DNA of 64,000 nt from contig CM026402.1 of the NCBI GenBank assembly GCA_014843695.1, forward strand, positions 16,647,545 to 16,711,544, written 5' to 3'. This stretch comes from Archivesica marissinica. Taxonomy: Eukaryota > Mollusca > Bivalvia > Venerida > Vesicomyidae. The stretch's first letter is position 1. Each line of letters opens with the position of its first letter. Made by a program: the position numbers and the translations under genes. Below the pieces are notes generated by a model that was not told where the DNA came from, did no database searches, and worked only from the letters and a program-made list of their open reading frames with translations. Below are positions 2,512 to 56,600 of this stretch, in pieces.

Positions 2512-2691
2512 GATCTGTAACCCCACCTCCAGGACACACAGGTACAGTAACATGTAACTTTGAGACCAGCAACATGTGTGGGTATACCCAGTCTAGAGGG
2601 GACGACCAGTTTGACTGGGTTTGGTTCACGGGCCGATCACCGACAACGGGTACCGGACCATCAAATGACCACACCCAGCAGTCTGCTAGAG
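2512..2691 (+). CDS. MAM1 exon a (N-terminal segment)
   Basis: Acceptor TTTTTGTATTACAG precedes base 2512 and donor GTAATG follows 2691; both junctions are phase 1. Residues 1-60 of the joined protein. After a short Pro/Gly/Thr lead ([13 protein letters not shown]) comes the MAM opening CNFE, then MCGYTQ, DQFDW and GPSNDHT. The two cysteines are the first conserved MAM pair. It is the first exon of this gene in the window; upstream lies only the 35-bp array, so an earlier exon must be off the left edge. The segment is full-length compared with the eight sister copies here. Confidence 0.93.
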
Positions 2692-5600
2692 GTAATGATT
2701 TTTTTTAATAGACTGAAAGCAAAAAATCTACACAAGATGTAAAAAGAAAAATGACTTGGATGAGATGGTTATTATGATCATGCAAATATATTTCGCATAG
2801 CGAGTACATCGCTAGGTTACTACATCGCTAGGTTACTACATCGCTAGGTTACTACATCGCTAGGTTACTACATCGCTAGGTTACTACATCGCTAGGTTAC
2901 TATACTACATCGCTAGGTTACTACATCGCTAGGTTACTACATCGCTAGGTTACTATACTACATCGCTAGGTTACTATACTACATCGCTAGGTTACTACAT
3001 CGCTAGGTTACTACATCGCTAGGTTACTATACTACATCGCTAGGTTACTACATCGCTAGGTTACTACATCGCTAGGTTACTACATCGCTAGGTTACTACA
3101 ACATCGCTAGGTTACTACTACCTCTCTAGGTTACTACATCGCACATCGCTAGTTTACTACATCGCTAGGTTACGCAGTATGTACTAGGTATATAGAATGC
3201 TTTGGGTTTCAAATTCCTTCATGAGAGGAAGCTACCCAACTGGCTTGTGGAATGTGGATGGTTGTACCCGGCTCCCTGTCCGTGTCTGATATAATGTGCT
3301 GAGAGGAGTACCAGGGGTGTACATCCACCAAGTCTGATATAATGTGCTGGGTGGGGCACCAGGAGTGTACATCCACCAAGTCTGATATAATGTGCTGGGT
3401 GGGGCACCAGGGGTGTACATCCACCAAGTCTGATATAATGTGCTGGGTGGGGCACCAGGAGTGTACATCCACCAAGTCTGATATAATGTGCTGGGTGGGG
3501 CACCAGGAGTGTACATCCACCAAGTCTGATATAATGTGCTGGGTGGGGCACCAGGGGTGTACATCCACCAAGTCTGATATAATGTGCTGGGTGGGGCACC
3601 AGGGGTGTACATCCACCAAGTCTGACATAATGTGCTTGGTGGGGCACCAGGGGTGTACATCCACCAAGTCTGATATAATGTGCTTGGTGGGGCACCAGGA
3701 GTGTACATCCACCAAGTCTGATATAATGTGCTGGGAGGGACACCAGGGGTGTACATCCACCAAGTCTGATATAATGTGCTGGGTGGGGCACCAGGAGTGT
3801 ACATCCACCAAGTCCTGGGAGAGGCATAATATTAATCTTTCCATAATCTTTCCATTATCTATGTTTTTAGTTCATAATCTTTCCATTATCTATGTTTTTA
3901 GTTCATAATCTTTCCATTATCTATGTTTTTAGTTCATAATCTTTCCATTATCTATGTTTTTAGTTCATAATCTTTCCATTATCTATGTTTTTAGTTCATA
4001 ATCTTTCCATTATCTATGTTTTTAGTTCATAATCTTTCCATTATCTGTTTTTAGTTCATGATCTTTCCATTATCTGTGTTTTTAGTTCATAAAATCTTTC
4101 CATTATCTGTTTTTAAAAATATTTTTCATCAGTGTATCACATTTTGAATAGCTCTCTGAAATGAAAAAACTGTGTTCCAGGCCATTACATGCTGATGGAG
4201 TCTAACGGCCATAGACGGAATCAGAAGTGTAGACTGCTGTCTCCCACGACCGTTTCTAGGCAACCCATGTGTCTACAGTTCTACTATTATATGTATGGAC
4301 CAAATGTGAACAGGCTATCTGTGTACACAAAGGTCAATAGACATGTGGGCCGTGCCCTGTGGTCCAAACGGGGCAATCAGGGTGCAACATGGCAAGTAGG
4401 ACAGGTCACGCTAAATTATGGAAGCCGCAATTTTCAGGTGAGTTTGTATTTGGAATAATTCTTCAATTATAAAGAATGTTTCTATCAAGTACTGTGGGTG
4501 TCTGCTCACAAGAAATAAATAAAACAATAAAATCAGAAACAATAATCCAGGGATCGCAGGAGTTTGATCCCCCGTCTGACCCTAATAAAATGAACAGTCT
4601 TTCAGATGGGAATTTAAACCAAGGTCTCGTGTCGGTGCTGTACACCGTGCACGTAAAAGAACCAGAGGAGACTCTGGAATGGGTCTTGGTCTGTATCATT
4701 GCACTATCCTCCAAAAATCTAAAATGACTAATCTCTTCAGGAGGCGTCGCTCATATGGGCGACCGGTAGCGACGATAAATAAACGTAAAACACACACACA
4801 AAACAATAGAACATAATAGGAATTCACGAATATGTTTAATTCAACTACAGTTATAAACGCGCTTGGCACATATATGTGATATTTGTTCCTTTGAAGCTAT
4901 CCTCACCACCATTTATGGAAGAGCCATAATATATCGTATCTCATATTCATGTGTGTTCCCATGACCACAGACCAAAGCCATGCCATAACTTGCCGATTCA
5001 TTGCTTGATATATTGTGTTATTATGGGTTGTATTTGAAGCATTATGGGTATTACAGGTTGTATTTGAAGCATTATGGGTGTTACAGGTTGTATTTGAAGC
5101 ATTATTACAGGTTGTATTTGTAGCATTATGGGTATTACAGGTTGTATTTGAAGCATTATGGGTATTACAGGTATTTGAAGCATTATGGGTATTACAGGTT
5201 GTATTTGAAGCATTATGGGTATTACAGGTTGTATTTGAAGCATTATGGGTATTACAGGTTGTATTTGAAGCATTATGGGTATTACAGGTTGTATTTGTAG
5301 CATTATGGGTATTACAGGTTGTATTTGAAGCATTATGGGTATTACAGGTTGTATTTGAAGCATTATGGGTATTACAGGTTGTATTTGAAGCATTATGGGT
5401 ATTACAGGTATTTGAAGCATTATGGGTATTACAGGTTGTATTTGTAGCATTATGGGTATTACAGGTTGTATTTGAAGCATTACGAGGTACTGGTAACTCT
5501 GGAGATATTGCAATTGATGATGTAGTCACTCACAGTGGCAGATGTCCGTCGCCTGGCACCTGTGATTTTGAGAAGGGTCTGTGTACATGGTCAAACTCAA

Positions 5601-8600
5601 AGGGAGATGATTTTGATTGGATACAGAAAGTGGGAAGTACAAGTACTCGTACAACTGGACCTTCAACTGATCATACCACTGGACAGGGACAAGGTGTGCA
5701 AACTTTCACCATGTTCTTTTTACATAAAGATATATTTCTGTTTAGTTTATACAAATTTATTTTAGCTCGATTGCGAAACAAGTTCTTACAATTTATATTA
5801 ATCACTCCGGTTACATCGAGATGGAATCCATCGCCATGAGGGAGAGAGAAGAGGCCACGGGGAATTTAAATACCCTGCTGTCTAAGGGCACACTTGTAAC
5901 GGCTCCAGCTGGGCTCGAACTCCGAGGCCGTTCAAACTGATTGCCGCAATTTCTAAAATGTTGCTATCATACAATTGTATTTGTTACACAATCAGTATTA
6001 CACAAGATTTGCAGTAATGAAACACGATCATTTTATACAACCTTTTAATGTCTTGGAAAACTGTTGAAAAATATATAATCTTGTTTTGACTAGATTACGG
6101 ACTCACTTCGTAGCTACATTTCTCCGTAACCAATCATAACAGCAATGAAATGAATGTGCATAAATCACGTTTAGTACAGTCTACATCCATGATGTCGAAT
6201 TCCGTCGAACCAAACAAAATAGTTCGACATAACCGAAGTTTGACTTAACGAAATTCGATATAAACAGATCCAGTTACAGTCAAACCTGTCTTAGTTTAGT
6301 TTATACAAATTTATTTTAGCTCGATTGCGAAACAAGTTTTTTCAACTTATATTAATCACTCTCGAGACCTCATTCAGGATGGAATCCATCACCATGAAGG
6401 AGAGAGAAGAGGCAATGTGGAATTTAAATGCCTTGCCTAAGGGCACAATCGTAACGGCTCCAGCGGGGCTCGAACTCCGGACTTTTCGCACCCGAAGCGA
6501 ACGCGCATCCACTGTGCTATCACGACTTCCACAAGTCTTAAACCTGTCTTAAACAGCCAGCCAAGGGAATCACAGAAAATGGCTGCTTAGCACAGGTGGT
6601 TGCTTAATAGAGGTGAAATGTATAATAAAACAACACATTGGGAATATGTTAACTGTCTGCTTAATACAGGTTGGCTGCTTATTAGAGGTGACCACTAACA
6701 CAGGTTTGACTGTATATATAAAATGATAGTGTCTGAAATGGGACTTTGATCTGACTTCGAGATAACCGGAGAATTCGACATAACCGACTTTGACATTTGA
6801 CTTTGATGTAGACTGTATATTAATATGAAATAGCCTCTACCGGGAAAATACTACTAAAAAGTTAAATTCAATTACTGAAATAGACATTATAGAAGGAATA
6901 TAACCACATCTCATCTCATTTGTTATGTAATTGATGATTTAGTGATAGTGATTTATGACTATTGTTAGGTTCATTTCTTGTGATTTGTAATTTTGTCTGC
7001 AGGTATTTATTCTTTCATTTAGTTTAATGGTTTGATTTAGCAATTCCAATTCCAATTTATAATAATAGTCATAGGTTTAGGTTAAAGCAGCATTACATCG
7101 TAATAAAGGATGTTTTGGGTAAAATATAAATATTAATGTGTGTGTGTTTGCAAAAATCGAAATAGTGGCTCAGAAACGATAAAATTCCAATAAATTTAAA
7201 CCGTCGTATACGCGAATATGTTTATCAACACACGAAATGTAAACACGCACAGCACACATGCGTGAAGCAACAGAGGATGTAGAAAACAACGTATATATTT
7301 TGAACATGAAAGACTATCTATCTATCTTCCTCTAATGACGAACCCCTCGCGGGGATGTAGAAATGTCCCTAAAAGACTTAGCTAACAGAGGTATGAATCA
7401 ACATATCAAGTAATTGAATTAAAAAGACAACGTGGGACAAATGGGGACGATGCATTCCGAATGTAAATAAGTGCGGACGATGCGTTCCGGTTGTAAACAA
7501 GTGCGTGGCCGATCGACTCGGAAAGTCCTACTTTCGGTTTCGAGTTTGTTTTATCGCAAAAAACACTGTTTACCAAATGAACATAAGCATACAAAGTATA
7601 ATGTTAGAATGTGTAGCACCATTGCTACCCATACGTAAAATTTGAATTTTCAAATATCTTTTATTTCATACGATGTAATGCTGCTTTAAGTTTTAGTGAT
7701 TTATTGTTTAGTTTTGGTTCAGTTATAGCAGTTAATTGTAGATTTATGTTCAAATTTAGTGATTAGATTTAAATTATAGGAATTTATTATTAGGTTTAGG
7801 TTCAAGTTTAGTGCCTTATGATAAGGTTAAGAATTAGTGAAGCATATGTGTTTGGAATACTTAAATATAGGATTAGTTATGAAACAGTGGCCGGCCAATT
7901 CTAAAAGTGTTCCAATGGCTGGCATCTGGAAATTGAACTGTAAAGATTAATTTAATTACAGTCAAACCTGTGTTAGTGGTCACCTCTAATAAGCAGCCAA
8001 CCTGTATTAAGCAGCCAGTTAACATATTCCCAATGTGTTGTTTTATTATACATTTGACCTCTATTAAGCAGCCACCTGTGCTAAGCAGCCACTTTCTGTG
8101 ATTCCCTTGGCTGGCTGCTTAAGACAGGTTTGACTGTAGTACACCTACACTATTACAATCAAATCTGTCTCAAGCAGCCTGCCAAGGGATCACAGAAATT
8201 GGGTGCTTAGTTCAGATGGCTGTTTAATAGAGGTCAAATGTATAATAATACAACATATTGGGAATCTGGAAACTGGCTGCTTAATACAGGTTGGCTGCTT
8301 AATAGAGGTCAAATGTATAATAATACAACATATTGGGAATCTGGAAACTGGCTGCTTAATACAGGTTGGCTGCTTAATAGAGGTGAGCACTAATACAGGT
8401 TTGACTGTACTGTCTAATGTTTCATTCAACTTATGATTGTATCAAATTGTAATGTGTGTTGTTTTTATTTCCAGGTCATTACATATACATTGAAGCTAGC
8501 AATCCAAGACGGCCGAATGACAAGGCTCAGTTAGTCAGCCAGACCTTAAATGGGTCAAATCGTCCCCTTTGCTTCCAGTTCTGGTACAGTATGGTAGGGG

Positions 8601-11600
8601 CCACCATTGGGTCCCTAAATGTTTATAAACAGCAGATTACTGGGCAGAACACTGCCATGACACTGATGTGGTCCTTATCTGGCAACCAGCAAAAGCAGTG
8701 GATTCAAGGAAAATTTCATATCACCTCAAGAACTAGTTTCAAGGTTTGTTATTGGTTTGATGTTCCCAGCTATGAACCTTTTTATTTGAATTATCCATAC
8801 ATACAATATCTGCAATTATCCATACATACAATATCTGCAATTATCCATACATACAATATCTGCAATTATCCATACATATAATATCTGCAATTATCCATAC
8901 ATACAATATCTGCAATTATCCATACATACAATATCTGCAATTATCCATACATACAATATCTGCAATTATCCATACATACAATATCTGCAATTATCCATAC
9001 ATACAATATCTGCAATTATCCATACATACAATATCTGCAATTATCCATACATACAATATCTGCAATTATCCATACATACAATATTTGCAATTATCCATAC
9101 ATACAATATCTGCAATTATCCATACATACAATATTTGCAATTATCCATACATACAATATCTGCAATTATCCATACATACAATATCTGCAATTATCCATAC
9201 ATACAATATCTGCAATTATCCATACATACAATATCTGCAATCCATTCAGACAAACTTTAACAGTTTTCACATTCGGGATGGGAGGAGGGTGTAACTGAAT
9301 TTAATTTAGTGGAAGTCGTCATCGCACAGTGGTAAGCGCGTTCGCTCCAGGTGTGAAAAGCCCAGGGTTCGTGCCCAGCTGTAGCTGTTACGATTGTGTC
9401 CTTAGGCAATTTTGTGTTCGATTAGCGCAGTGGTTAGTGTGCTCGCTTCTCACCAATGCAACCCAGTTTCGATCCTCAGACCGGGAAGTATGTGAGATGG
9501 TACGGTGGTCGCCAGATCGGACAGGTGGGTTTTCTCCGGGTATTCCGGTTTCCTCCCACCTCCGGTTTCCTCCCACACAAATGACCACATTTACGCTTTC
9601 ATCCGCACCAACTGGAGTGATTAATATAAGTATATAAGTTGTTAGAACTTGCATCGCAATCGTTTAAAAAAAAAAAAGGCTATAGCTTTCTGTTCTAATC
9701 CTTTTTCATTCATGTATCTAAGTTTTGTGTAAAATATATATCTGTATAAGTTTCATTGTTTGAAATAAATGTTTAAGCTACCCACAGTTGTTGCATGGTT
9801 TTCTTCTGTTTCTTTCAGGTTGTGATTGAGGGGGTGAGGGGAACCGGTATAACGGGCGATATTGCAATTGATGACATCAGAACTAGCCTTAGCAGCTGTG
9901 CACGTAAGTCTATATATAGCTTGGCTTGCACTGTAGTGGAAAGCAAGATATAGCAGTCACATTTCGATTGACGGTGATGTTGGCACCATCATTAAAATCA
10001 TACAATATTACATGTAACTAATAAACCGTATAAAACAGTCTACATCCGTTATGTCGAATTCCATCGGACCGAACAAAATACTTCGACATAACCGACTTTG
10101 ACATAACGGATGTAGACTGTATTTATACGGTTCATTAGTTACTTTGATAAGTTGGATACTGTTTCTAGGTGTTGGTCTGTGTCCCCCTAACAAGTCCACC
10201 CCCTTAGGGTGACCTAGAACTTCAATTTTGGCAAAATAATGGTGTAGTGTTCAGAAATATTTGACATGTCCAAAACAGAACTTTACATTATTATATCTCA
10301 AACTGTTAAAGATGTTGCTTTGAAACTTTGCATGCACATACAAGGACAAATTACTCTAAACCCACAGTAAATCCTAACCCAATCAGCGACCGTGAACTTG
10401 ATGATGATTGAGTTTATTTACCCTCGCCTCCGGCGAACCATATGGGCGAGCGCACTAAGAAGATTAGTAGACATCTAAGTTGTTTATGTAGACAGCTGGG
10501 AAGGCATCTTCATTCTTCGCAGAGTGACAAGTCCTGTATCCTCTTTTGAAGGGGTCCCTTGAACTTGAAATTTGGCCAAATATATAAATTATTTATAAAA
10601 AAATCACATCAAATTTATTGTTTTGAAACATGGACTTATACAGCCAATCACGTGTGGTGATACACACTAGGGGTGGTGACCTTGCTGGAAATACAACTTA
10701 TACAGCCAATCACGTGTGGTGACACACACTAGGGGTGGTGACCTTGCTGGAAATACAACTTATACAGCCAATCACGTGTGGTGACACACACTAGGGGTGG
10801 TGACCTTGCTGGAAATACAACTTATACAGCCAATCACGTGTGGTGACACACACTAGGGGTGGTGACCTTGCTGGAAATACAACTTATACAGCCAATCATG
10901 TGTGGTGACACACACTAGGGGTGGTGACCTTGCTGGAAATACAACTTATACAGCCAATCACGTGTGGTGACACACACTAGGGGTGGTGACCTTGCTGGAA
11001 ATACAACTTATACAGCCAATCACGTGTGGTGACACACACTAGGGGTGGTGACCTTGCTGGAAATACAACTTATACAGCCAATCACGTGTGGTGATACACA
11101 CTAGGGGTGGTGACCTTGCTGGAAATACAACTTATACAGCCAATCATGTGTGGTGACACACACTAGGGGTGGTGACCTTGCTGGAAATACAACTTATACA
11201 GCCAATCACGTGTGGTGACACACACTAGGGGTGGTGACCTTGCTGGAAATACAACTTATACAGCCAATCATGTGTGGTGACACACACTAGGGGTAGTATG
11301 TATGTTCCTTTAATGTGGGAACAGATAGGTGGTGACCTTGCTGGAAATACAACTTATACAGCCAATCACGTGTGGTGACACACACTAGGGGTGGTGACCT
11401 TGCTGGAAATACAACTTATACAGCCAATCACGTGTGGTGACACACACTAGGGGTGGTGACCTTGCTGGAAATACAACTTATACAGCCAATCACGTGTGGT
11501 GACACACACTAGGGGTATGTATGTATGTTCCTTTAATGTGGGAACTTAGATAGGTGGTGACCTTGCTGGAAATACAACTTATACAGCCAATCACGTGTGG

Positions 11601-14600
11601 TGAAACACACTAGGGGTATGTATGTATGTTCCTTTAATGTGGGAACTTAGATAGGTGGTGACCTTGCTGGAAATACAACTTATACAGCCAATCACGTGTG
11701 TTGAAACACACTAGGGGTGGTGACCTTGCTGGAAATACAACTTATACAGCCAATCATGTGTGGTGAAACACACTAGGGGTGGTGACCTTGCTGGAAATAC
11801 AACTTTACAGCCAATCTGGGGGTGATTGTGAAATACCTTTAGTATGTGTGGTGACACATAGGGGTGGTGACCTTGCTGGAAATACAACTTATACAGCCAA
11901 TCACGTGTGGTGACATACACTAGGGGTGGTGACCTTGCTGGAAATACAACTTATACAGCCAATCAGGTGACCTTGCTGGAAATACAACTTATACAGCCAA
12001 TCACGTGTGGTGACATACACTAGGGGTGGTGACCTTGCTGGAAATACAACTTATACAGCCAATCATGTGTGGTGAAACACCCTAGGGGTGGTGACCTTGC
12101 TGGAAATACAACTTATACAGCCAATCACGTGTGGTGACCTTGCTGGAAATACAACTTATACAGCCAATCACGTGTGGTGACCTTGCTGGAAATACAACTT
12201 ATACAGCCAATCACGTGTGGTGAAACACACTAGGGGTTGTGACCTTGCTGGAAATACAACTTATACAGCCAATCACTTGTGGTGACACACACTAGGGGTG
12301 GTGACCTTGCTGGAAATAGAAGTGGAGTTATTGTGATGGTTAGATCGACATCTTTCCATCCTTCACTAATGCTGCTGTACCATTCCTACCTTTTTTAACG
12401 TCATAGACTTGTAATATTAAAAACGCCCAATGAGATTTTGTTTCACATGAAGATCAGTTTAGTTAATACAAATTTATCTTGGCTCGATTGCGAAGCAAGT
12501 TCTTACAACTTATTTTAATCACTCTCGAGATCCCATTCCTGATGGAATACATTGCCACCAGGGAGAGAGAAGAGGCAACTTGGAATGTAAATGCCTTGCT
12601 TGCCTAAGGGCAGAATCATAATGGCTCCAGCGGGGGAGGGAACTCCGGGTCTTTCGCACCTGAAGCAAATGCCATTGCGCTATCACGACTTCCACTTGAA
12701 GAATAATGGAACCTTTAACTTTAGTTTAAAGCAGCATTACATCGTGTGAAATAAAAGATATTTGAAAATTTCAATTTTTACGTATGGTTAGCAATGCTGC
12801 TACACATTCTAACATTATACTTTGTATGCTTATGTTCATTTGGTAAACAGTGTTGTTTTGCAATAAAATAAACTCGAAACCGAAAGTAGGACTTTCCGAG
12901 TCGATAGCTCACGCACTTGTTTACAACCGGAACGCATCGTCCGCACTTGTTTACATTCGGAATGCATCGTCTCCATTTGCCCCACGTTGTCTTTTTAAAT
13001 TAAATTACTTGATATGTTGATTCATACCTCTGTTAGCTAAGTCTTTTAGGGACATTTCTACATCCCCGCGAGGGGTTCGACATTAGAGGAAGATAGATAG
13101 AGAGTCTTTCATGTTCAAAATATATAAGTTGTTTTCTACATCTCTGTTGTTTCACGCATGCGCGTTGTGCGTGTTTATATTTCGTGTGTTGATAAACAAA
13201 TTCGCGTATACGACGGTTTAAATTTATTGGAATTTTTATCGTTTCTGAGCGACTATTTCGATTTTTGTAAACACACACACATTTGTATTTACATTTTACC
13301 CAAAACAATCTTTATTTCGATGTAATGCTGCTTTATTTCGATGTAATGCTGCTTTATTTCGATGTAATGCTGCTTTATTTCGATGTAATGCTGCTTTATT
13401 TCGATGTAATGCTGCTTTATTTCGATGTAATGCTGCTTTATTTCGATGTAATGCTGCTTTATTTCGATGTAATGCTGCTTTAAGCATTTTGTTATTTTGT
13501 TATTTATAAATTAAACAGTAATACACCTATATATCAACCTGCGATTTAAGGCAAAGTCTTCATTGTTCAATTTAAAATGTTTGTGTTTTTCAACAGTGAC
13601 ACCATCAAAAGCCAGACCTACCGCAACAACAGCTGCAGCAAGCACAACAACAAGGAGCACACCCGTTACCACGGTGCACGTGAAAACAAACACAGTCACG
13701 TGCAACTTCGATTATGACCTTTGTGGCTGGATACAGCTTAGGAATGACCAGTTTGATTGGAAAAGACAAAGGGGTGGTACCATCCTACCAGGGACTGGAC
13801 CGCCCGGGGATCACACCTCGGGGAGTAAGTCATGCAGATTTTCTCAAATGATAGCGGGTTGCTATGTATAGATACATGTCAAATTTTAGCTTGTTGCTAT
13901 GTATCGATGCATGTCAAATTTTAGCTGGTTGCTATGTATAGATGCATGTCAAATTACAGCGGGTTGCTATGTATAGATGCATGTCAAATTTCAGCATGTT
14001 ACTATGTATAGATGCATGTCAGATTTCAGTGGGTTACTATATATAGATGCATGTCAAATTTCAGCATGTTACTATGTTACTATATATAGATGCATGTCAA
14101 ATTTCAGCTTGTTACTATATATAGATGCATGTCAAATTTCAGCGGGTTACTATATATAGATGCATGTCAAATTTCAGCATGTTACTATGTATAGATGCAT
14201 GTCAAATTTCAGCGGGTTGCTATATATAGATGCATGTCAAATTTCAGCAGGTTACTATATATAGATGCATGTCAAATTTCAGCATGTTACTATATATAGA
14301 TACATGTCAAATTTCAGCATGTTACTATGTTACTATATATAGATGCATGTCAAATTTCAGCATGTTACTATGTATAGATGCATGTCAAATTTCAGCGGGT
14401 TGCTATATATAGATGCATGTCAAATTTCAGCATGTTACTATATATAGATGCATGTCAAATTTCAGCAGGTTACTATATATAGATGCATGTCAAATTTCAG
14501 CGGGTTACTATATATAGATGCATGTCAAATTTCAGCGGGTTACTATATATAGATGCATGTCAAATTTCAGCGGGTTACTATATATAGATGCATGTCAAAT

Positions 14601-17600
14601 TTCAGCATGTTACTATATATAGATGCATGTCAAATTTCAGCGGGTTACTATATATAGATGCATGTCAAATTTCAGCGGGTTACTATATATAGATGCATGT
14701 CAAATTTCAGCGGGTTACTATATATAGATGCATGTCAAATTTCAGCATGTTACTATATATAGATGCATGTCAAATTTCAGTGGGTTACTATATATAGATG
14801 CATGTCAAATTTCAGCGGGTTACTATATATAGATGCATGTCAAATTTCAGCATGTTACTATATATAGATGCATGTCAAATTTCAGTGGGTTACTATATAT
14901 AGATGCATGTCAAATTTCAGCGGGTTACTATATATAGATGCATGTCAAATTTCAGCATGTTACTATATATAGATGCATGTCAAATTTCAGTGGGTTACTA
15001 TATATAGATGCATGTCAAATTTCAGCGGGTTACTATATATAGATGCATGTCAAATTTCAGCGGGTTACTATGTGTTCACTACTGCCTCTGTGAGGTACGC
15101 CAATAAGACCGGAAGAATCCAGAGCTCGCAGATAACACCGCATGGTAGATCACAGTGTCTCACGTTCTGGTACCACATGTATGGACCTAATATAGGGGTG
15201 ATGAACCTCTATGTGAAAATGAGACCCTCGCTTGGTCACCCACTGTGGACACGGGCAGGGTCAAAGGGCAATCAGTGGCTACAGGGAACTGTGACCCTCC
15301 CCAGCACAGGATCCTACTCGGTGAGTACTGTATGAGTGTATGACGGAACTGTGACCCTCCCCAGTACAGGATCCTACTCGGTGAGTACTGTATGAGTGTA
15401 TGACGGAACTGTGACCCTCCCCAGTACAGTATCCTGCTCTGTGAGTGTTACTGGGGTGTATGACGGAATTGTGAACTGCCCCAGTACAGGATCCTACACA
15501 GCCATATTGTTTTTGTTTGTCGACTGTTTCACGTTACTGTGTCACATGTTCTTAGGGACAGAGCGATAGGGCAATTGGCGACTGGTTAATTGCATTCACA
15601 ACTTATGACATCTGGGTATAAGTCATGTCATTGTCAATAGAAACACATTGTTGCTTGTGTTTGAAAGTATCAATGGGAATAGTTTCCATGGAGAAATGGT
15701 TTGAATTAATTTGTTTGTTTTTCTTGTGTTTGAACGTATTAATAGGTATGGTTTCCATGGAGACATGGTTTGAATTAATTTGTTTGTTTTTCTTGTGTTT
15801 GAACGTATTAATAAGTATGGTTTCCATGGAGACATGGTTTGAATTAATTTGTTTGATTTCAGCTTGTGTTTGAAAGTATCAATGGGAATGGTATCCGTGG
15901 AGACATGGCTCTGGATGATGTGTTGCTGCAGTCGTGTGCAGGTACATGTATACTAACTGTACCCATCGAGTGTAAGACATAATCCCCTTCATGTCTTCTA
16001 ACAAAGGCATACATAATCCCCTTCATGTCTTCTAACACAGGCATACATAATCCCCTTCATGTCTTCTAACAAAGGCATACATAATCCCCTTCATGTCTTC
16101 TAACAAAGGCATACATAATCCCCTCCATGTCTTCTAACAAAGGCATACATAATCCCCTCCATGTCCTCTAACACAGGCATACATAATCCCCTCCATGTCC
16201 TCTAACACAGGCATACATAATCCCCTCCATGTCCTCTAACACAGGCATACATAATCCCCTCCATGTCCTCTAACACAGGCATACATAATCCCCTCCATGT
16301 CCTCTAACACAGGCATACATAATCCCCTTCATGTCTTCTAACACAGGCATACATAATCCCCTCCATGTCTTCTAACAAAGGCATACATAATCCCCTCCAT
16401 GTCCTCTAACACAGGCATACATAATCCCCTCCATGTCTTCTAACACAGGCATACATAATCCCCTCCATGTCTTCTAACACAGGCATACATAATCCCCTCC
16501 ATGTCCTCTAACACAGGCATACATAATCCCCTCCATGTCCTCTAACACAGGCATACATAATCCCCTCCATGTCCTCTAACACAGGCATACATAATCCCCT
16601 CCATGTCTTCTAACACAGGCATACATAATCCCCTCCATGTCTTCTAACAAAGGCATACATAATCCCCTCCATGTCTTCTAACAAAGGCATACATAATCCC
16701 CTCCATGTCCTCTAACCAGGCATACATAATCCCCTCCATGTCTTCTAACAAAGGCATACATAATCCCCTCCATGTCTTCTAACAAAGGCATACATAATCC
16801 CCTCCATGTCTTCTAACAAAGGCATACATAATCCCCTCCATGTCTTCTAACAAAGGCATACATAATCCCCTCCATGTCTTCTAACAAAGGCATACATAAT
16901 CCCCTCCATGTCTTCTAACAAGGCATACATAATCCCCTCCATGTCTTCTAACAAAGGCATACATAATCCCCTCCATGTCTTCTAACAAAGGCATACATAA
17001 TCCCCTCCATGTCTTCTAACACAGGCATACATAATCCCCTCCATGTCTTCTAACACAGGCATACATAATCCCCTCCATGTCTTCTAACACAGGCATACAT
17101 AATCCCCTCCATGTCTTCTAACAAAGGCATACATAATCCCCTCCATGTCTTCTAACAAAGGCATACATAATCCCCTCCATGTCTTCTAACAAAGGCATAC
17201 ATAATCCCCTCCATGTCTTCTAACACAGGCATACATAATCCCCTCCATGTCTTCTAACACAGGCATACATAATCCCCTCCATGTCTTCTAACAAAGGCAT
17301 ACATAATCCCCTCCATGTCTTCTAACACAGGCATACATAATCCCCTCCATGTCTTCTAACACAGGCATACATAATCCCCTCCATGTCTTCTAACAAGGCA
17401 TACATAATCCCCTCCATGTCTTCTAACAAAGGCATACATAATCCCCTCCATGTCTTCTAACACAGGCATACATAATCCCCTCCATGTCTTCTAACACAGG
17501 CATACATAATCTCCTTCATGTCTTCTAACACAGGCATACATAATCCCCTCCATGTCTTCTAACAAAGGCATACATAATCCCCTCCATGTCTTCTAACAAA

Positions 17601-44600: not shown

Positions 44601-47600
44601 CCACGTAAACAGCAGTACGTGATCAATTCATTTCGAAGCTCAAAAATTGTGAATATTAGATTTGCGATTATTGAAAAAGACTCATAAGCGCGATATTTGT
44701 AAAATACTCGAATATAACGTGATATACAGTATTGTCTCGTTAAAATGTATTTTATATCTTAGGACATTACATGTACATCGAGGCGTCAGCACCGCGGCAC
44801 CGAGGCGACAAAGCCCGTCTGCTCAGCCCCATCTACAACACGACGACTCAGCCTTCCTGTGTCAAGTATTGGTACAGCATGTATGGACGGACCATGGGAA
44901 CTCTCAACGTATATACCGTTATAAAAGGGGTTTACAGGAAGGCCTGGTTTAAGTCAGGTCAGTTTGCATTATCTATGCTTTTATATTTCTGGATGCTTGA
45001 AAAAATTTGGTGGTTTTGAAATGATATTTTCAAGACTGTAATTTACTGAGGAAAATGGATTCATATATGGTAGTGTATGGAGCCCATATATCCAAGTATA
45101 CGGTAGTGTACGGAGCCAATATATCTAAGTATACGGTAATGTACAGAGCACATATATCCAAGTATACGGTAGTGTACGGAGCCCATATATCCGGTAGTGT
45201 ACAGAGCACATATATCCAAGTATACGGTAGTGTACGGAGCCCATATATCTAAGTATACGGTAGTGTATGGAGCCCATATATCCAAGTATACAGTAGTGTA
45301 TGGAGCCCATATATCCAAGTATACGGTAGTGTACGGAGCACGTATATCCAAGTATACGGTAGTGTACGGAGCACATATATCCAAGTATACGGTAGTGTAT
45401 GGAGCACATATATCCAAGTATACGGTAGTGTACAGAGCCCATATATCCAAGTATATGGTAGTGTGCAGAGCTCATATATCCAAGTATATGGTAGTGTATG
45501 GAGCTCATATATCCAAGTATACGGTAGTGTACAGAGCACATATATCCAAGTATACGGTAGTGTACGGAGCTCATATATCCAAGTATACGGTAGTGTACGG
45601 AGCACATATATCCAAGTATACGGTAGTGTACGGAGCACATATATCCAAGTATACGGAGCACATATATCCAAGTATATGTTAGTGTACGGAGCCCATATAT
45701 CCAAGTATACGGTAGTGTACGGAGCCCATATATCCAAGTATATGATAGTGTACCGAGCCCATATATCCAAGTATACGGTAGTGTACGGAGCTCATATATC
45801 CAAGTATACGGTAGTGTACGGAGCTCATATATCCAAGTATACGGTAGTGTACGGAGCTCATATATCCAAGTATACGGTAGTGTACGGAGCTCATATATCC
45901 AAGTATACGGTAGTGTACAGAGCTCATATATCCAAGTATATGGAAGTGTACAGAGCTCATATATCCAAGTATACAGAGTTTTCAGATACAAGCAAGAAAC
46001 CAGATTAATGAATTGTCATCTGTACAATTATTTGAGTTATTTATAGGCTGTATTTTACCCAGCATGCAAAGTGGTAATGCTTCCTATATTGTAATCGTTC
46101 ACTATTACATGTTCAGGTAACCAGGGTAGCGCTTGGAACATTGCATCTTTCACGGTGCCAGCCACCAGTGGAACGTTCCGGATAGTGTTTGAAGGAATTG
46201 TGGGTAGAGGTGTACAAGGCGATATCGCCATCGACGACTACAGTATCACGCCAGGGTCCTGCTCTGCCTCGGGTAAGCATTCCATTCTAGATGTTATATA
46301 CTACTTTAGATACAGAAGTAATAATGTACGGGTATAGTCATATTAATTAACATGACGCCGATGAGACTATAGCTCCTCCCACTAGTCATGTGATAAGAAT
46401 TTTCTCGACACCGATAATCATGACAAGTTGTCGAGGAAAATGGCAGCTGTTTGATAACCTATTACGGTTGCTGAAGGTGTGTCGCTATATCGATCGCTGA
46501 TTGGCTTATCGGATTATCGCTGGCTGGGTTGATTGACAGCTCGCGTCATGTTAATTTTATCACAAATTCCAAAAAAGTTGTTACCATACAATTGTATTTA
46601 TTACAACACCAGTATTACCCAAGTTTTACAGTAATGAAATCCAACCGTTTTTAATGGGTTTTTTTTTAATTGGCTGTCCGATTAGCGAAGTGGTTAGCCC
46701 GCTCGCTTCTCACCAATGCAACCCGGGTTCGATCCTCGGACCAGGGAAGTATGTGAGACGGTACGGTGGTCGCCAGATCGGATAGGTGGGTTTTCTCCGG
46801 GTACTCCGGTTTCCTCCCACGCGAATGACCACATACCACATCATCCGCGCCAACAAGAGTGATTAATATAAGTTGTTGAAACTTGTTACACAATTGTTGT
46901 AAAATAAATAAAGTTTAAATTAAACGTTTTTAATCATTTTAATGTAATTGAACATTGTGTTGAAAAATATATAAAGTCAAACCTGTGTTAGTGGTCACCT
47001 ATTAAGCAGCCAACCTGTATTAAGCAGCCAGTTTCCAGATTCCCAATATGTGGTTTTATTATATATTTGACCTCTATTAAGCTGCAAACCTGTATTAAGC
47101 AGCCAGTTTCCAGATTCCCAATATGTTGTTTTATTATACATTAACCTCTATTAAGCAGCCACCTGTGCTAAGCAGCCATTTTCTGTGATTCCCAAATATG
47201 TTGTTTTATTATACATTTAAACTATTAAGCAGCCACCTGTGCTAAGCAGCCACTTTCTGTTATTCCCTTGGCTGGCTGCTTAAGGCAGGTTTAACTGTAA
47301 CCTTATTTTGACCAGGATGGATGTTGTTTCATCATCTGGTACTTTACGTAGCTACATTTCTCAAGAATTCGTCCGCCTCCGTGGTCGAGCGGTTACGGTC
47401 GACTGTAACCTATCACCACTGATGGTCACGGGTTCGAGACCCGCTCAGGCCGTGTCTCATTTATATGAAAAGTTGGCAGTTTCTTACGGAGGTTGGTGCA
47501 CCCAAGTACTGGTTAACCGCTGGAGCCTGCCAAGGAAAGGTGTTGTTAGGTAAACTGCCCACCGGCGATATAGCCCAAAATGTGGCTGAAGCAAGCGTAA

Positions 47601-50600
47601 AACCCGAAATATAACATATATATATATATATGTGCGTAAATCACTTTTAGCATGGTTTTTATTAAATTTTCTGGCAGAAAAAACGCGGACACTCGCATAC
47701 AAAGTAATTTTGTGTATGTAACAGGAATATGACTTTATTCTCTTGGAGGATTTCTGTGTGATTTACTTGGTCTGAAGAGTTTTACGCAGGCTCAGGAACA
47801 TTGATGTCATGTTCATTTCTATAATTACTTGATATGGAACCAAGTCTTGTAACATTTTGTACAGGGTCGGGAACCAAGTCTTGTAACATTTTGTACATGG
47901 TCGGGAACCAAGTCTTTTAACATTTTCCATCCATGTTCATTTGTACGTTTACAGGGTCGGGAACCAAGTCTTGTAGCATTTTGTACAGGGTCGGGAACCA
48001 AGTCTTGTAGCATTTTGTACAGGGTCGGGAACCAAGTATTGTAGCATTTTGTACAGGGTCGGGAACCAAGTCTTGTAACATTTTGTACAGGGTCGGGAAC
48101 CAAGTCTTGTAGCATTTTGTACAGGGTCGGGAACCAAGTCTTGTAGCATTTTGTACAGGGTCGGGAACCAAGTATTGTAGCATTTTGTACAGGGTCGGGA
48201 ACCAAGTCTTGTAACATTTTGTACAGGGTCGGGAACCAAGTCTTGTAGCATTTTGTACAGGGTCGGGAACCAAGTCTTGTAGCATTTTGTACAGGGTCGG
48301 GAACCAAGTCTTGTAACATTTTGTACAGGGTCGGGAACCAAGTCTTGTAACATTTTCCATCCATGTTCATTTGTCGTTTACAGGGTCGGGAACCAAGTCT
48401 TGTACCATTTTCCATCCATATTCATTTGTACGTTTATAGGGTCGGGAACCAAGTCTTGTAACATTTTCCATCCATGTTCATTTGTCGTTTACAGGGTCGG
48501 GAACCAAGTCCTGTAACATTTTCCATCCATATTCATTTGTACGTTTACAGTGTCGGGAACCAAGTCCTGTACCATTTTTCATCCAAGTTCATTACAGTGT
48601 CGGGAACCAAGTCCTGTACCATTTTTCATCCAAGTTCATTACAGTGTCGGGAACCAAGTCCTGTACCATTTTTCATCCAAGTTCATTACAGTGTCGGGAA
48701 CCAAGTCCTGTAACATTTTCCATCCATGTTCATTTGTACATTTACAGTGTCGGGAACCAAATCCTGTAACATTTTCCATCCATGTTCATTTGTACGTTTA
48801 CAGTGTCGGGAACCAAGTCCTGTAACATTTTCCATCCATGTTCATTTGTACGTTTACAGGGTCGGGAACCAAATCCTGTAACATTTTCCATCCATGTTCA
48901 TTTGTACATTTACAGTGTCGGGAACCAAGTCCTGTAACATTTTCCATCCATGTTCATTTGTACGTTTACAGGGTCGGGAACCAAATCCTGTAACATTTTC
49001 CATCCATGTTCATTTGTACGTTTACAGGGTCGGGAACAACGTCCTGTAACTTTGACAATAGGAATCTCTGCACATGGACCAATGACCACGGGCATGATCA
49101 ATTTGACTGGCAAATGAGGCATGGTCTGACGCCCAGTTCACAAACTGGACCAACAAACGATCATACTAAGAAAACCTCCCAAGGTATGCCATATTAACCC
49201 ATTCAACACCAAGTAACTCACATGGACTGGTCCATGATATTTTTAGACCAATAAATTAATAACAAAATTACATTTGGATCAGTTCATTTATCAAAATGGG
49301 TAAAAAAAAATTCTAAAAATAGTTATATTACTTGAAAAAAGTGCAGATCCTGATGAGACGGCTCGTCACGAGCCGGCTCATCTGGATCTACACTTTTTTG
49401 TAAGCCAATTTAGAGGTCTGTGGTGTTGAAAGGGTTAACCACTCTATTATTTCAGCAGAACATGTCGGTTTAATCCTACCTTCACTCCTTCAGGCCAAAA
49501 CTGCCTGCTGTATAATTGTTTATTTATTCGGCACCGTTGGAAAGAAAACTTACGATGTCATATCACTGTGAAATCATATCGCTGAGACGTGTGCTCACTG
49601 GTTGTATTATAAACTTGTGATGTCATATCGCTGTGACGTATGTATGCTGGTTGTATTATAAACTTGTGATGTCATATCGCTGTGACGTATGCTCATTGGT
49701 TGTATTATAAACTTGTGATGTCATATCGCTGTGACGTATGCTCAATGGTTGTATTATAAACTTGTGATGTCATATCGCTGTGACGTTTGCTCACAGGTCA
49801 TATTATAAACTTGTGATGTCATATCGCTGTGTCATATGTATGCTGGTTGTATTATAAACTTGTGATGTCATATCGCTGTGACGTATGCTCACAGGTTGTA
49901 TTATAAACTTGTGATGTCATATCGCTGTGTTGTATGTATACTGGTTGTATTATAAACTTGTGATGTCATATCGCTGTGACGTATGCTCACAGGTTGTATT
50001 ATAAACTTGTGATGTCATATTGCTGTGACGTATGTATGCTGGTTGTATTATAAACTTGTGATGTCATATCGCTGTGACGTATGTATGCTGGTTGTATTAT
50101 AAACTTGTGATGTCATATCGCTGTGACGTATGTATGCTGGTTGTATTATAAACTTGTGATGTCATATCGCTGTGACGTATGCTCACAGGTTGTATTATAA
50201 ACTTGTGATGTCATATCGCTGTGACGTATGTATGCTGGTTGTATTATAAACTTGTGATGTCATATCACTGTGACGTGTGTATAATGGTTGTATTATAAAC
50301 TTGTGATGTCATATCGCTGTGACGTATGCTCACAGGTTGTATTATAAACTTGTGATGTCATATCGCTGTGACGTATGCTCACAGGTTGTATTATAAACTT
50401 GTGATGTCATATCGCTGTGACGTATGCTCAATGGTTGTTTTATAAACTTGTGATGTCATATCGCTGTGACGTATGCTCACAGGTTGTATTATAAACTTGT
50501 GATGTCATATCGCTGTGACGTATGTATACTGGTTGTATTATAAACTTGTGATGTCATATCGCTGTGACGTATGCTCACAGGTTGTTTTATAAACTTGTGA

Positions 50601-53600
50601 TGTCATATCGCTGTGACGTATGCTCACAGGTTGTTTTATAAACTTGTGATGTCATATCGCTGTGACGTTTTCTCACAGGTTTTTTTGTAAACTTGTGATG
50701 TCATATCGCTGTGACGTATGCTCACAGGTTGTTTTATAAACTTGTGATGTCATATCGCTGTGACGTTTGCTCACAGGTTGTATTATAAACTTGTGATGTC
50801 ATATCGCTGTGACGTATGCTCACAGGTTGTATTATAAACTTGTGATGTCATATCGCTGTGACGTATGTATACTGGTTGTATTATAAACTTGTGATGTCAT
50901 ATCGCTGTGACGTATGCTCACAGGTTGTTTTATAAACTTGTGATGTCATATCGCTGTGACGTATGCTCACAGGTTGTTTTATAAACTTGTGATGTCATAT
51001 CGCTGTGACGTTTTCTCACAGGTTTTTTTGTAAACTTGTGATGTCATATCGCTGTGACGTATGCTCACAGGTTGTTTTATAAACTTGTGATGTCATATCG
51101 CTGTGACGTTTGCTCACAGGTTGTATTATAAACTTGTGATGTCATATCGCTGTGACGTATGTATACAGGTTGTATTATAAACTTGTGATGTCATATCGCT
51201 GTGACGTATGCTCACAGGTTGTATTATAAACTTGTGATGTCATATCGCTGTGACGTTTGCTCACAGATTGTATTATAAACTTGTGATGTCATATCGCTGT
51301 GACGTATGTATACAGGTTGTATTATAAACTTGTGATGTCATATCGCTGTGACGTATGCTCACAGGATGTATTATAAACTTGTGATGTCATATCGCTGTGA
51401 CGTTTGCTCACAGATTGTATTATAAACTTGTGATGTCATATCGCTGTGACGTATGTATACAGGTTGTATTATAAACTTGTGATGTCATATCGCTGTGACG
51501 TATGCTCACAGGATGTATTATAAACTTGTGATGTCATATCGCTGTGACGTATGTATACTGGTTGTTTTATAAACTTGTGATGTCATATCGCTGTGACGTA
51601 TGCATACTGGTTGTATTATAAACTTGTGATGTCATATCGCTGTGACGTATGTTTACCCTTTGAGCCTACAGAACACGTGCATAGCATGACTATCACATGT
51701 ACTGCATCACTATCAATACATCTCCTTGGTGATTAGCTACTTCCTTTTCCATTCCATCTAACATCAATGTTACCAAGCCAACACAATTTCTCTGATTTAC
51801 TTGCTGAATGTTAACGACAGCAATATTTAATATGAATTATGTGTTTCAGGTACATACATATTTATTGAGGTGTCTAGTCCAAGGATCACGGGTGACAGAG
51901 CATGGCTAGTCAGTGAAGGGTTCCCCGCGGGGTCCACACACTGTCTTTCATTCTGGTATAGCATGAATGGTAACAGCATTGGGGCACTGAGAGTGTGGGT
52001 GTGGGCTCAAAATGGGGCTCGAACCCCAATTTGGGAGCTGAAAGGCAGACAAGGTGCTAACTGGCTCCCTGGGATAATCAGCATACCGACACAGACACTG
52101 TCTTACAAGGTAATACTTGCATGAATAACCAATCAGTAAATGTCTTGCAAGGTAATACTGGCATGAATAACCAATCAGTAAATGTCTTACAAGGTAATAC
52201 TTGCATGAATAACCAATCAGTAAATGTCTTACAAGGTAATACTTGCATGAATAACCAATCAGTAAATGTCTCACAAGGTAATACTTGCATGAATAACCAA
52301 TCAGTAAATGTCTCACAAGGTAATACTTGCATGCATAACCAATCAGTAAATGTCTTACAAGGTAATACTTGCATGAATAACCAATCAGTGAATGTCTTAC
52401 AAGGTAATACTTGCATGAATAACCAATCAGTAAATGTCTTACAAGGTAATACTTGCATGAATAACCAATCAGTAAATGTCTTACAAGGTAATACTTGCAT
52501 GAATAACCAATCAGTAAATGTCTTACAAGGTAATACTTGCATGAATAACCAATCAGTAAATGTCTTACAAGGTAATACTTGCATGAATAACCAATCAGTA
52601 AATGTCTTACAAGGTAATACTTGCATGAATAACCAATCAGTAAATGTCTTACAAGGTAATACTTGCATGAATAACCAATCAGTAAATGTCTTACAAGGTA
52701 ATACTTGCATGAATAACCAATCAGTAAATGTCTTACAAGGTAATACTTGCATGAATAACCAATCAGTAAATGTCTTACAAGGTAATACTTGCATGAATAA
52801 CCAATCAGTAAATGTCTTACAAGGTAATACTTGCATGAATAACCAATCAGTAAATGTCTTACAAGGTAATACTTGCATGAATAACCAATCAGTAAATGTC
52901 TTACAAGGTAATACTTGCATGAATAACCAATCAGTAAATGTCTTACAAGGTAATACTTGCATGAATAACCAAATCAGTAAATGTCTTACAAGGTAATACT
53001 TGCATGAATAACCAATCAGTAAATGTCTTACACAGTAATACTTGCATGAATAACCAATCAGTAAATGTCTTACAAGGTAATACTTGCACGAATAACCAAT
53101 TAGTAATTGTCTTACAAGGTAATACTTGCATGAATAACCAATCAGTAAATGTATTGCAAGGTAATACTGGCATGAATAACCAATCAGTAAATGTATTGCA
53201 AGGTAATACTTGCATGAATAACCAATCAGTAAATGTCCTGCAAGGTAATACTTGCATGAATAACCAATCAGTAAATGTCTTGCAAGGTAATACTGGCATG
53301 AATAACCAATCAGTGAATGTCTTACAAGGTAACACTTGCATGAATAACCAATCAGTAAATGTAAATTATTTTTGTGTTTGTCCTAATCACTATGGACAGT
53401 TATTTTTGTGTTTGTCCCCATCACTATGGAGAGTTATTTTGTGTTTGTCCCCATCACTATGGAGAGTTATTTTGTGTTTGTCCCCATCACTATGGAGAGT
53501 TATTTTTGTGTTTGTCCCCATCACTATGGAGAGTTATTTTTGTGTTTGTCCCCATCACTATGGAGAGTTATTTTGTGTTTGTCCCCATCACTATGGAGAG

Positions 53601-56600
53601 TTATTTTGTGTTTGTCCCCATCACTATGGAGAGTTATTTTTGTGTTTGTCCCCATCACTATGGAGAGTTATTTTGTGTTTGTCCCCATCACTATGGAGAG
53701 TTATTTTGTGTTTGTCCCCATCACTATGGAGAGTTATTTTGTGTTTGTCCCCATCACTATGGAGAGTTATTTTTGTGTTTGTCCCCATCACTATGGAGAG
53801 TTATTTTTGTGTTTGTCCCCATCACTATGGAGAGTTATATTTGTGTTTGTCCCCATCACTATGTAGAGTTATTTTTGTGTTTGTCCCCATCACTATGGAG
53901 AGTTATTTTGTGTTTGTCCCCATCACTATGGAGAGTTATTTTTGTGTTTGTCCCCATCACTATGTAGAGTTATTTTTGTGTTTGTCCCCATCACTATGGA
54001 GAGTTATGTTTGTCCCCATCACTATTTGTCCCCATCACTATGGAGAGTTATTTTTGTGTTTGTCCCCATCACTATGGAGAGTTATTTTTGTGTTTTTCTT
54101 GATCAATTTTGATAGTTATTCTGTGTTTCTCTAGATCATTATGGAGGGTACCAAAGGAACGAATGTTACCGGGGACATAGCACTTGATGACATCAGTGTC
54201 ACCAACACAACCTCGTGTGCAAGTATGCAACTTTTCCTATCTCTTTCCTGTTTCAATTTGGACATTTATTATGTATTTTGTACACACAGGGAGCCAACTC
54301 GCACATTTCTTTAATCATATTGGTTTTTTTATTTTACTATGCTTTCCAATTAAATATAGAAATTTATCGCTACACAATTAAATAGAATATTGGTATGCCA
54401 TGACACAACATAAAAAAATACCACAAAAAAAGAAACTCACTTCCCTCCTAAGTTGGCTACGGTATTTTAATTACTGTTGACTTTTTCTGGTAACAAATGT
54501 CGAATCGAGTCGAGTCAAGTCGAATGTAGAGGAGAAGAATTATATAAGACTATGTCTTCCATTCTAATCCTGTTTCTGTATTCTGATTATGTGTGGTTGT
54601 TCAATATGTATTATATTGGGAAATAAAATATGTTTTAAGTCGAATGTAATGTTTCTTCTATGCAGATTTATTTTAGAAAAACAAGATTTTACAACATTAG
54701 ATTAATCGCTTTTAATGCCTCATTCCGGATGGAATCCTTTGCCACGAGGTCGAGAGAAGAGGCATTGTGCATATAAGTGTCTTGCCTAAGGACTCTACCA
54801 GTCTACTCTGACCGGGCTCGAATTCATAACATCTCGGTTGCAAAGCGGACACTGAATCCTTTGCACCATAGTTGTAATGGTTAGAGGGTTGATGATTTGT
54901 TGACTCATTTATCGTTAGCGTTTAAGCATTTTCAGTGAAACCCCTATAAAGCAAATGACCAGCACACCAGGCTTGACGGTTAGAAAATTGTTCTATACCC
55001 TCAAAGTTTGGTGCTTCTGTTTGGTTCAGATAAGTGTAATTCCCAGAATCGATTGATTAATCAAATCATTAGAGCTCGTGTTTGAGATTGAGAAATGTTT
55101 TATAATCTCCGACCCTGATCTGGAACTTATAAATCATGCCTCAGATCTCTAAGTGTCTTTCATGTAATTTGATTGGATGAGTATGAGATTTTCATTCAGC
55201 TACCGTACATACTCCCCGCTAAGACGTTCACGACTATAAGACGACCACCCTCAACTTTGGTCATAAATCAGTGGTATTTTGCATAGACCCGCGTAAGAAG
55301 CCACTCAGAATCAAAGACCAAACACATTAATTGAAGACTGTAAATTATGTATGTCAACTGCACTATTGCACAACAATAAATTTGATTTGTTAAAATGCTA
55401 TAGACAAGTTCAGTTTATTCAGAGCTATGAAAGTCTATGTTTTTGTTACACCCTTTGAGTTATTTCAATATAATGTCATCATTTATTGAATCATACATTT
55501 AACAAACCGATTTTTATCACTCGCTTATAAGACGGGAAGCCACGTTTAGGGCAAAATATTGTGATAAAAACCGCGTCTTATAGGCAAGTAAGGATGGTAA
55601 GCCAATCAGAAAGCTTTAGACTGAATTTGAGATTGAAGAAGTGCTTTCTAGCCTCCAGGCCAAGTGAAGGGTTTGGTGTGTGGACAATGTTTTCAGTTAA
55701 AGAGGTTTAGATGGATTTTCATACTTGGTTGAGATTTATGCTAAATTTGTTAACCCTTTCCTTCATAGAGATTACGGTTAATATACTATTATATCTCCAT
55801 ACAAACGACAGCCATTTAACTATCATGCAGTGGATAAGTAGTCACCATATCTATCCCATCTCCATAGATATTACTGGGACTACATGAGATTCTGGCCTTT
55901 ATTTTATGAACATTGGTTTGGTAACTACATTGTCAATGTATGTCGTATTGGTAATGGCGTCAAGAGGTTCTTCTATGAGGGAAAGGGTTTTAATAATGTA
56001 TGTTATATTGGTAATGGCGTGAAGAGGTGCTTCTATGAGGGAAAGGGTTAATAATGTATGTCATATTGGTAATGGCGTGAAGAGGTGCTTCTATGAGGGA
56101 AAGGGTTAATAATATATGTCATATTGGTAATGGCGTCAAGAGGTGCTTCTATGAGGGAAAGGGTTAATAATGTATGTCATATTGGTAATGGCATCAAGAG
56201 GTGCTTCTATGAGGGAAAGGGTTAATGTATGTCATATTGGTAATGGCGTGAAGAGGTGCTTCTATGAGGGAAAGGGTTAATAATGTATGTCATATTGGTA
56301 ATGGCGTGAAGAGGTGCTTCTATGAGGGAAAGGGTTAATAATGTATGTCATATTGGTAATGGCGTGAAGAGGTGCTTCTATGAGGGAAAGGGTTAATAAT
56401 GTATGTCATATTGGTAATGGCGTGAAGAGGTGCTTCTATGAGGGAAAGGGTTAATAATGTATGTTATATTGGTAATGGCGTGAAGAGGTGCTTCTATGAG
56501 GGAAAGGGTTAAACAAAGCTTAGAAGGAGGCTGAGATATGGTTATACTTTGGCAGATAGGAAAGACTTAGATGTAGTAGAAAATATTTCGAAAAAAAAAT

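Follow-up and report, generated by a model that had tools for sequence, protein, structure and literature searches.

Tandem repeats at exon-intron boundaries in other genomes

Tandem repeats that run across exon-intron boundaries have been described in amphioxus under the name of mirages. They were reported in the Adh3 and globin genes in PMC3087553, which in its passages on these repeats credits the Adh3 work of 2002 for them, and the corresponding passages of PMC3902484 add mirages in the troponin C gene and similar imperfect repeats in PGBD5. The original prediction for the present locus, which held that no such class had been described, was therefore wrong on this point. Related arrangements include internal tandem repeats at exon-intron boundaries in human segmental duplications, with units of ~30 bp on average and 27 intron modifications, according to the part of PMC2812944 that deals with them. 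Another is the Rogers model, as told in PMC3087553, in which introns arise when genomic AG/GT sites are duplicated in tandem. In the open-licence papers listed by our literature searches, mirages were not reported from any mollusc.

We analyzed a stretch of 64,000 nucleotides (hereafter “the window”; C17:16647545-16711544) from a genome of 1.54 Gb. The window covers part of a MAM-domain exon locus of very large size, and its junction-spanning arrays are of the mirage kind: a real and tidy example, probably from a new lineage. Mirages are characterized by a boundary inside the repeat unit, the occurrence of both boundary types, retention of AG/GT in many copies, copy-number differences between haplotypes, and normal splicing. 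At the C17 locus, the boundary lies inside the tandem unit in 8 cases in the window and 5 elsewhere, both acceptors and donors are present among these 13 cases, and many but not all copies carry AG or GT.

The same features are described for the amphioxus mirages in the passages on Adh3, BflGb6, BflGb9 and troponin C, where either 5' or 3' exon boundaries are spanned and many AG/GT are kept. Unlike those mirages, the C17 cases probably belong to a different lineage, the named relatives of highest identity to a giant exon of the locus being bivalves (among the 120 matches listed of 660). The C17 locus also has more cases than are given per locus in those passages (13 of 148 modelled boundaries), and its arrays reach up to ~35 copies, compared with 3 copies in one BflGb6 haplotype and 6 in the other, as described in PMC3087553. 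A null test for random seeding was applied to C17; the mirage passages of the two papers contain none. The human repeats are either retained or removed by splicing, and are tied to novel introns with transcript support in the relevant part of PMC2812944, whereas the C17 arrays are known from the genome alone. As in the intron-gain model recounted in PMC3087553, sequence bearing splice signals has been duplicated at C17, but the arrays lengthen existing introns.

The MAM-exon locus and its arrays

All MAM matches at C17 16.65-17.11 Mb lie on the + strand (among 150 scored of 330 genome candidates). The MAM profile was built from 14 domains of a giant open exon of 3545 aa (C17:17065256-17075891; L007-L019, L021, L025-L027, L031), in which 18 MAM matches were found among the same 150 scored candidates and LDL-receptor-A-like stretches were recognized by eye. 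Among the 120 matches listed of 660, the top-scoring named relative of this exon is from Branchiostoma lanceolatum (40% over the whole query), followed by Gigantopelta (48%), and identity is highest to two bivalves, Dreissena polymorpha (62%, with 66% of the query aligned) and Pecten maximus (52%, with 70% aligned). Judging from these identities, the animal is probably a bivalve. COX1 from a stretch on C18 matched unnamed entries at 94 and 75% and, as best named animals among 7996 scored candidates, insects, mites and a gastropod at 63-67%, which does not place the genome. A mollusc haemocyanin profile gave a match neither in the genome nor in a control. Upstream, domains homologous to those of the giant exon are each split by two or three introns. 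The giant exon looks like the outcome of wholesale intron loss, perhaps via a cDNA copy.

The exon models number 59, of which 26 lie in the window (Table 1) and the remainder in the 80 kb that follow. MAM matches below 6 bits or below 12 bits were dropped, the cut-off depending on the stretch. Splice-phase rules were derived from clear cases and do not amount to an independent check of the exon models. The exons at 5561 and 122676 were joined to the preceding exon, and exon 140547 was left out of the repeat-profile set and restored for the seed counts. Acceptors 13597, 15061 and 20266 and donors 122796 and 130798 (the latter a GC donor) were set by hand. One acceptor was scored as 12175 though phase favours 12161; the array there spans both. 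Five array copies of one L050 exon and two L053 matches were dropped from the exon models. Boundary denominators refer to MAM exons, with non-MAM linker exons left out.

Table 1. Modelled exons and tandem arrays at splice junctions, in window coordinates
Feature	Positions	Strand	Relation to junction
Modelled MAM exons, n = 26 in window	2512..62444	+	First acceptor 2512, last in-window donor 62444
Array, 30-bp unit, ~15 copies	5019..5482	+	Spans acceptor 5465, 18 exon bases
Array, 35-bp unit, ~34 copies	13853..15071	+	Spans acceptor 15061, 11 exon bases; AG in 35/35 copies found
Array, 60-bp unit, 3.5 copies	15285..15497	+	Spans donor 15320, 36 exon bases
Array, 69-bp unit, 3.7 copies	15654..15908	+	Spans acceptor 15863, 46 exon bases
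Array, 69-bp unit, ~25 copies	18592..20307	+	Spans acceptor 20266 (hand-set, uncertain without RNA), 42 exon bases
Array, 56-bp unit, ~13 copies	48324..49050	+	Spans acceptor 49028, 23 exon bases
Array, 42-bp unit, 30 copies	52099..53362	+	Spans donor 52109, 11 exon bases; GT in 30/30 copies found
Overlapping TRF rows, 34-bp unit, ~23 copies	53366..54146	+	Row 54034-54146 spans acceptor 54135, 12 exon bases
Array, 21-bp unit	33540..33931	+	Starts 14 bases past donor 33526; junction not repeated
Array	57430..57616	+	Starts on last exon base at donor 57430; junction not repeated

In the window, TRF identified 47 independent arrays, which occupy 56% of the intron sequence, and it recovered an array at every place named in the original prediction. 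At the eight boundaries where the units had been said to contain the splice junction plus exon bases, they do so, and the arrays reach 11-46 bases into the exon. Two further donors had been described as flanked by the start of an array, and this wording fits both. AG or GT is preserved in nearly all copies of 6 of the 8 window arrays, and is restricted to the real copy at acceptors 15863 (1 of 4 copies) and 54135 (1 of 23). When ten junctions of the locus were examined, nearly all copies carried the dinucleotide at eight and the real copy only at two.

Several other repeats were observed in the introns. An 18-bp unit, TGGCTGCTTAATACAGGT, and its variants occur in both orientations at 8195-8384 and 46999-47257 of the window and at 84104-85024 of the extended sequence, as would a repeat that travels with a dispersed element. 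A 30-bp repeat pair at 7437-7505 and 12912-12971, apparently in opposite orientation, is found again at L045 6294-6362 near another MAM exon, which suggests a dispersed repeat family. Near-identical intronic peptides are encoded at window 21199-21282 and at 67471-67554 of the extended sequence and are probably fragments of a dispersed element. Related blocks with a 27/36-bp unit family (TGGCACCTAGGTCTCCAG...) at 38634-40149 and 41776-43239 occupy much of one intron.

Junction arrays counted against random seeding

For the seed test, we collapsed every array to a single unit, taken as its likely seed. Expectation in the pooled version was the share of collapsed intron lying in seeds; in the per-intron version, each seed was placed at random inside its own collapsed intron. 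By TRF count, 8 of the 52 modelled boundaries in the window were covered by arrays with 3.9 expected (P = 0.039). The pooled seed test gave 4.2 expected (P = 0.055) and the per-intron collapse 5.3 (P = 0.14), and the overlap can therefore not be called more than chance, as had been claimed. In the pooled test, 2 junction arrays were seen in the next 75 kb with 2.7 expected, and 1 in a further 25 kb with 0.7 expected. At L050, which also belongs to the C17 locus, 2 of 12 boundaries were spanned with 0.2-0.3 expected (P = 0.015-0.018). The stretches of the locus examined outside the window, which the earlier reader had not seen, gave 5 of 96 boundaries, with 3.7 (pooled, P = 0.30) or 4.2 (per-intron, P = 0.41) expected, and the whole C17 locus 13 of 148, with 7.8 (pooled, P = 0.056) or 9.5 (per-intron, P = 0.14) expected. 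The ratio of observed to expected at the locus is thus 1.4-1.7, with 95% limits of 0.7-2.8, and a seeding bias under about threefold remains compatible with the counts.

Other cuts of the window or of all data, with arrays of at least three copies or with a 20-mer criterion that includes four matches of 16-17/20, gave P values from 0.0003 to 0.025. Should junction arrays carry a fitness cost, the expected number would be an overestimate and would mask any true bias in seeding. With raw array coverage as reference, 10 of 117 junctions are covered and about half would be expected, a strong depletion; this null was rejected because selection on exons alone makes junctions look depleted. Random array ends were not used as a null, since the introns are filled with arrays.

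The distribution of repeats across junctions was profiled with 20-mers, a second copy being scored within 2 kb at 16/20 identity or more (shuffle background 0.5%). Over the 59 exons, the repeat share falls from 0.46 at 300-600 intron bases to 0.30 at 51-80 and 0.14 at 21-30 bases, is 0.07-0.10 within 10 bases of the junction, and reaches 0.02 at 31-45 bases into the exon. The junction bin (0.10) lies between neighbouring bins of 0.09 and 0.08. A strong junction hotspot would give a peak, and the profile has none apart from a step of 0.01-0.02 that can be explained by four weak matches at chance level. Such 20-mer matches at 9819, 13824, 82631 and 113824 (16-17/20) were not counted. The 20-mer test misses the arrays at 15863 and 54135, both of which were found by TRF. 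No fixed place of the junction within the repeat unit was found among ten arrays, their exonic share ranging from 26 to 67% (KS test against uniform, P = 0.17); the register thus offers no sign of an origin linked to splicing.

As a control, we used a MAM cluster on C2 with exons homologous to those on C17, represented by three stretches of 10 kb. Arrays make up 1-4% of the intron there, and no multi-copy junction array was found at its 62 boundaries. A 134-bp tandem duplication (1.8 copies) of a whole short MAM exon with both its splice sites is present at L051 8618-8861, and the three boundaries under it were not counted as minisatellite. The difference between C17 and C2 has a Fisher P of 0.012 without these three boundaries and 0.40 with them, and L051 and L053 hold near-copies, so that their 52 boundaries are not independent. 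Junction arrays thus occur where arrays are common. In a small sample of ten 1-kb stretches, one at an arbitrary position on each of ten contigs, array coverage was 36% and three stretches were wholly array. This suggests that array saturation is not peculiar to the MAM locus on C17; as the C2 cluster demonstrates, it is uneven across the genome. At C18:57969556-57970428 (L047), a stretch of mitochondrial DNA, partly read as N, has a COX1 match and, by eye, a cytochrome-oxidase-subunit-3-like frame, with TGA read as Trp; it is either a nuclear insert or a misassembly.

Probable selection, decoy splice sites and the proposed origin

Not one array was found wholly inside the 59 modelled exons, compared with about 10 expected at the intron seed rate. 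The original prediction had also allowed that copying from a junction is tolerated since it merely multiplies splice sites. This part agrees with our results, in which exonic arrays are missing and junction arrays occur at about the rate of random seeding. The best account, and in our judgement a likely one, is random birth of arrays combined with loss of exonic arrays and tolerance of junction arrays. Minisatellites would arise at roughly random intron positions and then expand until the introns are filled, and a few seed units would straddle a splice junction by chance. Junction arrays would be tolerated because the exon-side copy would keep the complete exon and its own splice site, with the extra copies staying intronic. 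Splicing would take the exon-proximal copy, presumably via exon definition. Arrays seeded within an exon would alter the protein and be lost. The pattern thus seems to be shaped by selection more than by a hotspot, although selection as the cause is what we infer from it.

It appears unlikely that tandem duplication starts preferentially at exon-intron boundaries, for instance where transcription or splicing leads to breaks. The absence of a clear peak at junctions, the variable unit register and the near-expected count outside the window all speak against such a preference, which the original prediction had offered as one of two readings, and the counts fit random seeding. The window count leans the other way, as do the two boundaries at L050 and the upper limit of the C17 ratio, but the window had been selected by the earlier reader. 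Misassembly that created or lengthened the arrays is very improbable. Tandem arrays are difficult to assemble and the copy numbers here come from the assembly alone, but contig C1862 aligns with C17:17.03 Mb in two long pieces of 95-99.5% identity and has the same array units, and the units of one array differ from each other by substitutions. A 19-bp unit has 35 copies on C1862 and 36 on C17, a 21-bp unit 57 and 54, respectively, and a 91-bp array with 3.7 copies on C17 was not reported as an array on C1862. These arrays, which are non-junction ones near another MAM exon, thus differ in copy number as alleles would.

The ten junctions hold 152 decoys with AG or GT, most of which a simple consensus score rates about as high as the real site; upstream of one acceptor lie 34 decoys that are about equal to it on this measure. 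An open frame would be left by 18 of the 152 if used. Since most decoys would break the frame, correct splicing must mostly choose the exon-proximal copy. This argues against a role of the arrays in splicing, whereby decoys would serve as alternative sites or hold splicing factors and give rise to proteins of variable length, a role that judging from the sequence is very unlikely. It would be best represented by acceptor 5465, where all 14 decoy acceptors lie in frame and leave it open, and the three length variants (-6, -3, -3) are all multiples of three, compared with 37 of 315 length variants in the other arrays with at least five copies. However, this array is one of ten inspected and two of its variants seem to derive from a single inherited event, which makes the frame pattern a lead only, and an insert at 5465 would fall within the MAM fold. 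We would accordingly give only a very small chance to the idea that some junction arrays, chiefly the 30-bp array at 5465, are banks of equal in-frame acceptors from which one gene would make proteins with a variable number of inserted decapeptides, the frame having been kept by selection on the array.

Random birth followed by selection, as preferred here, suggests that array saturation can give rise to junction-spanning minisatellites without a special mechanism, and the C17 locus suggests that they are not confined to lancelets. Claims of seeding can be tested by collapsing arrays to their seeds before counting. Junctions rich in decoys are natural tests of splice-site choice, and if RNA shows exon-proximal use only, this would be exon definition acting in vivo on dozens of near-identical sites.
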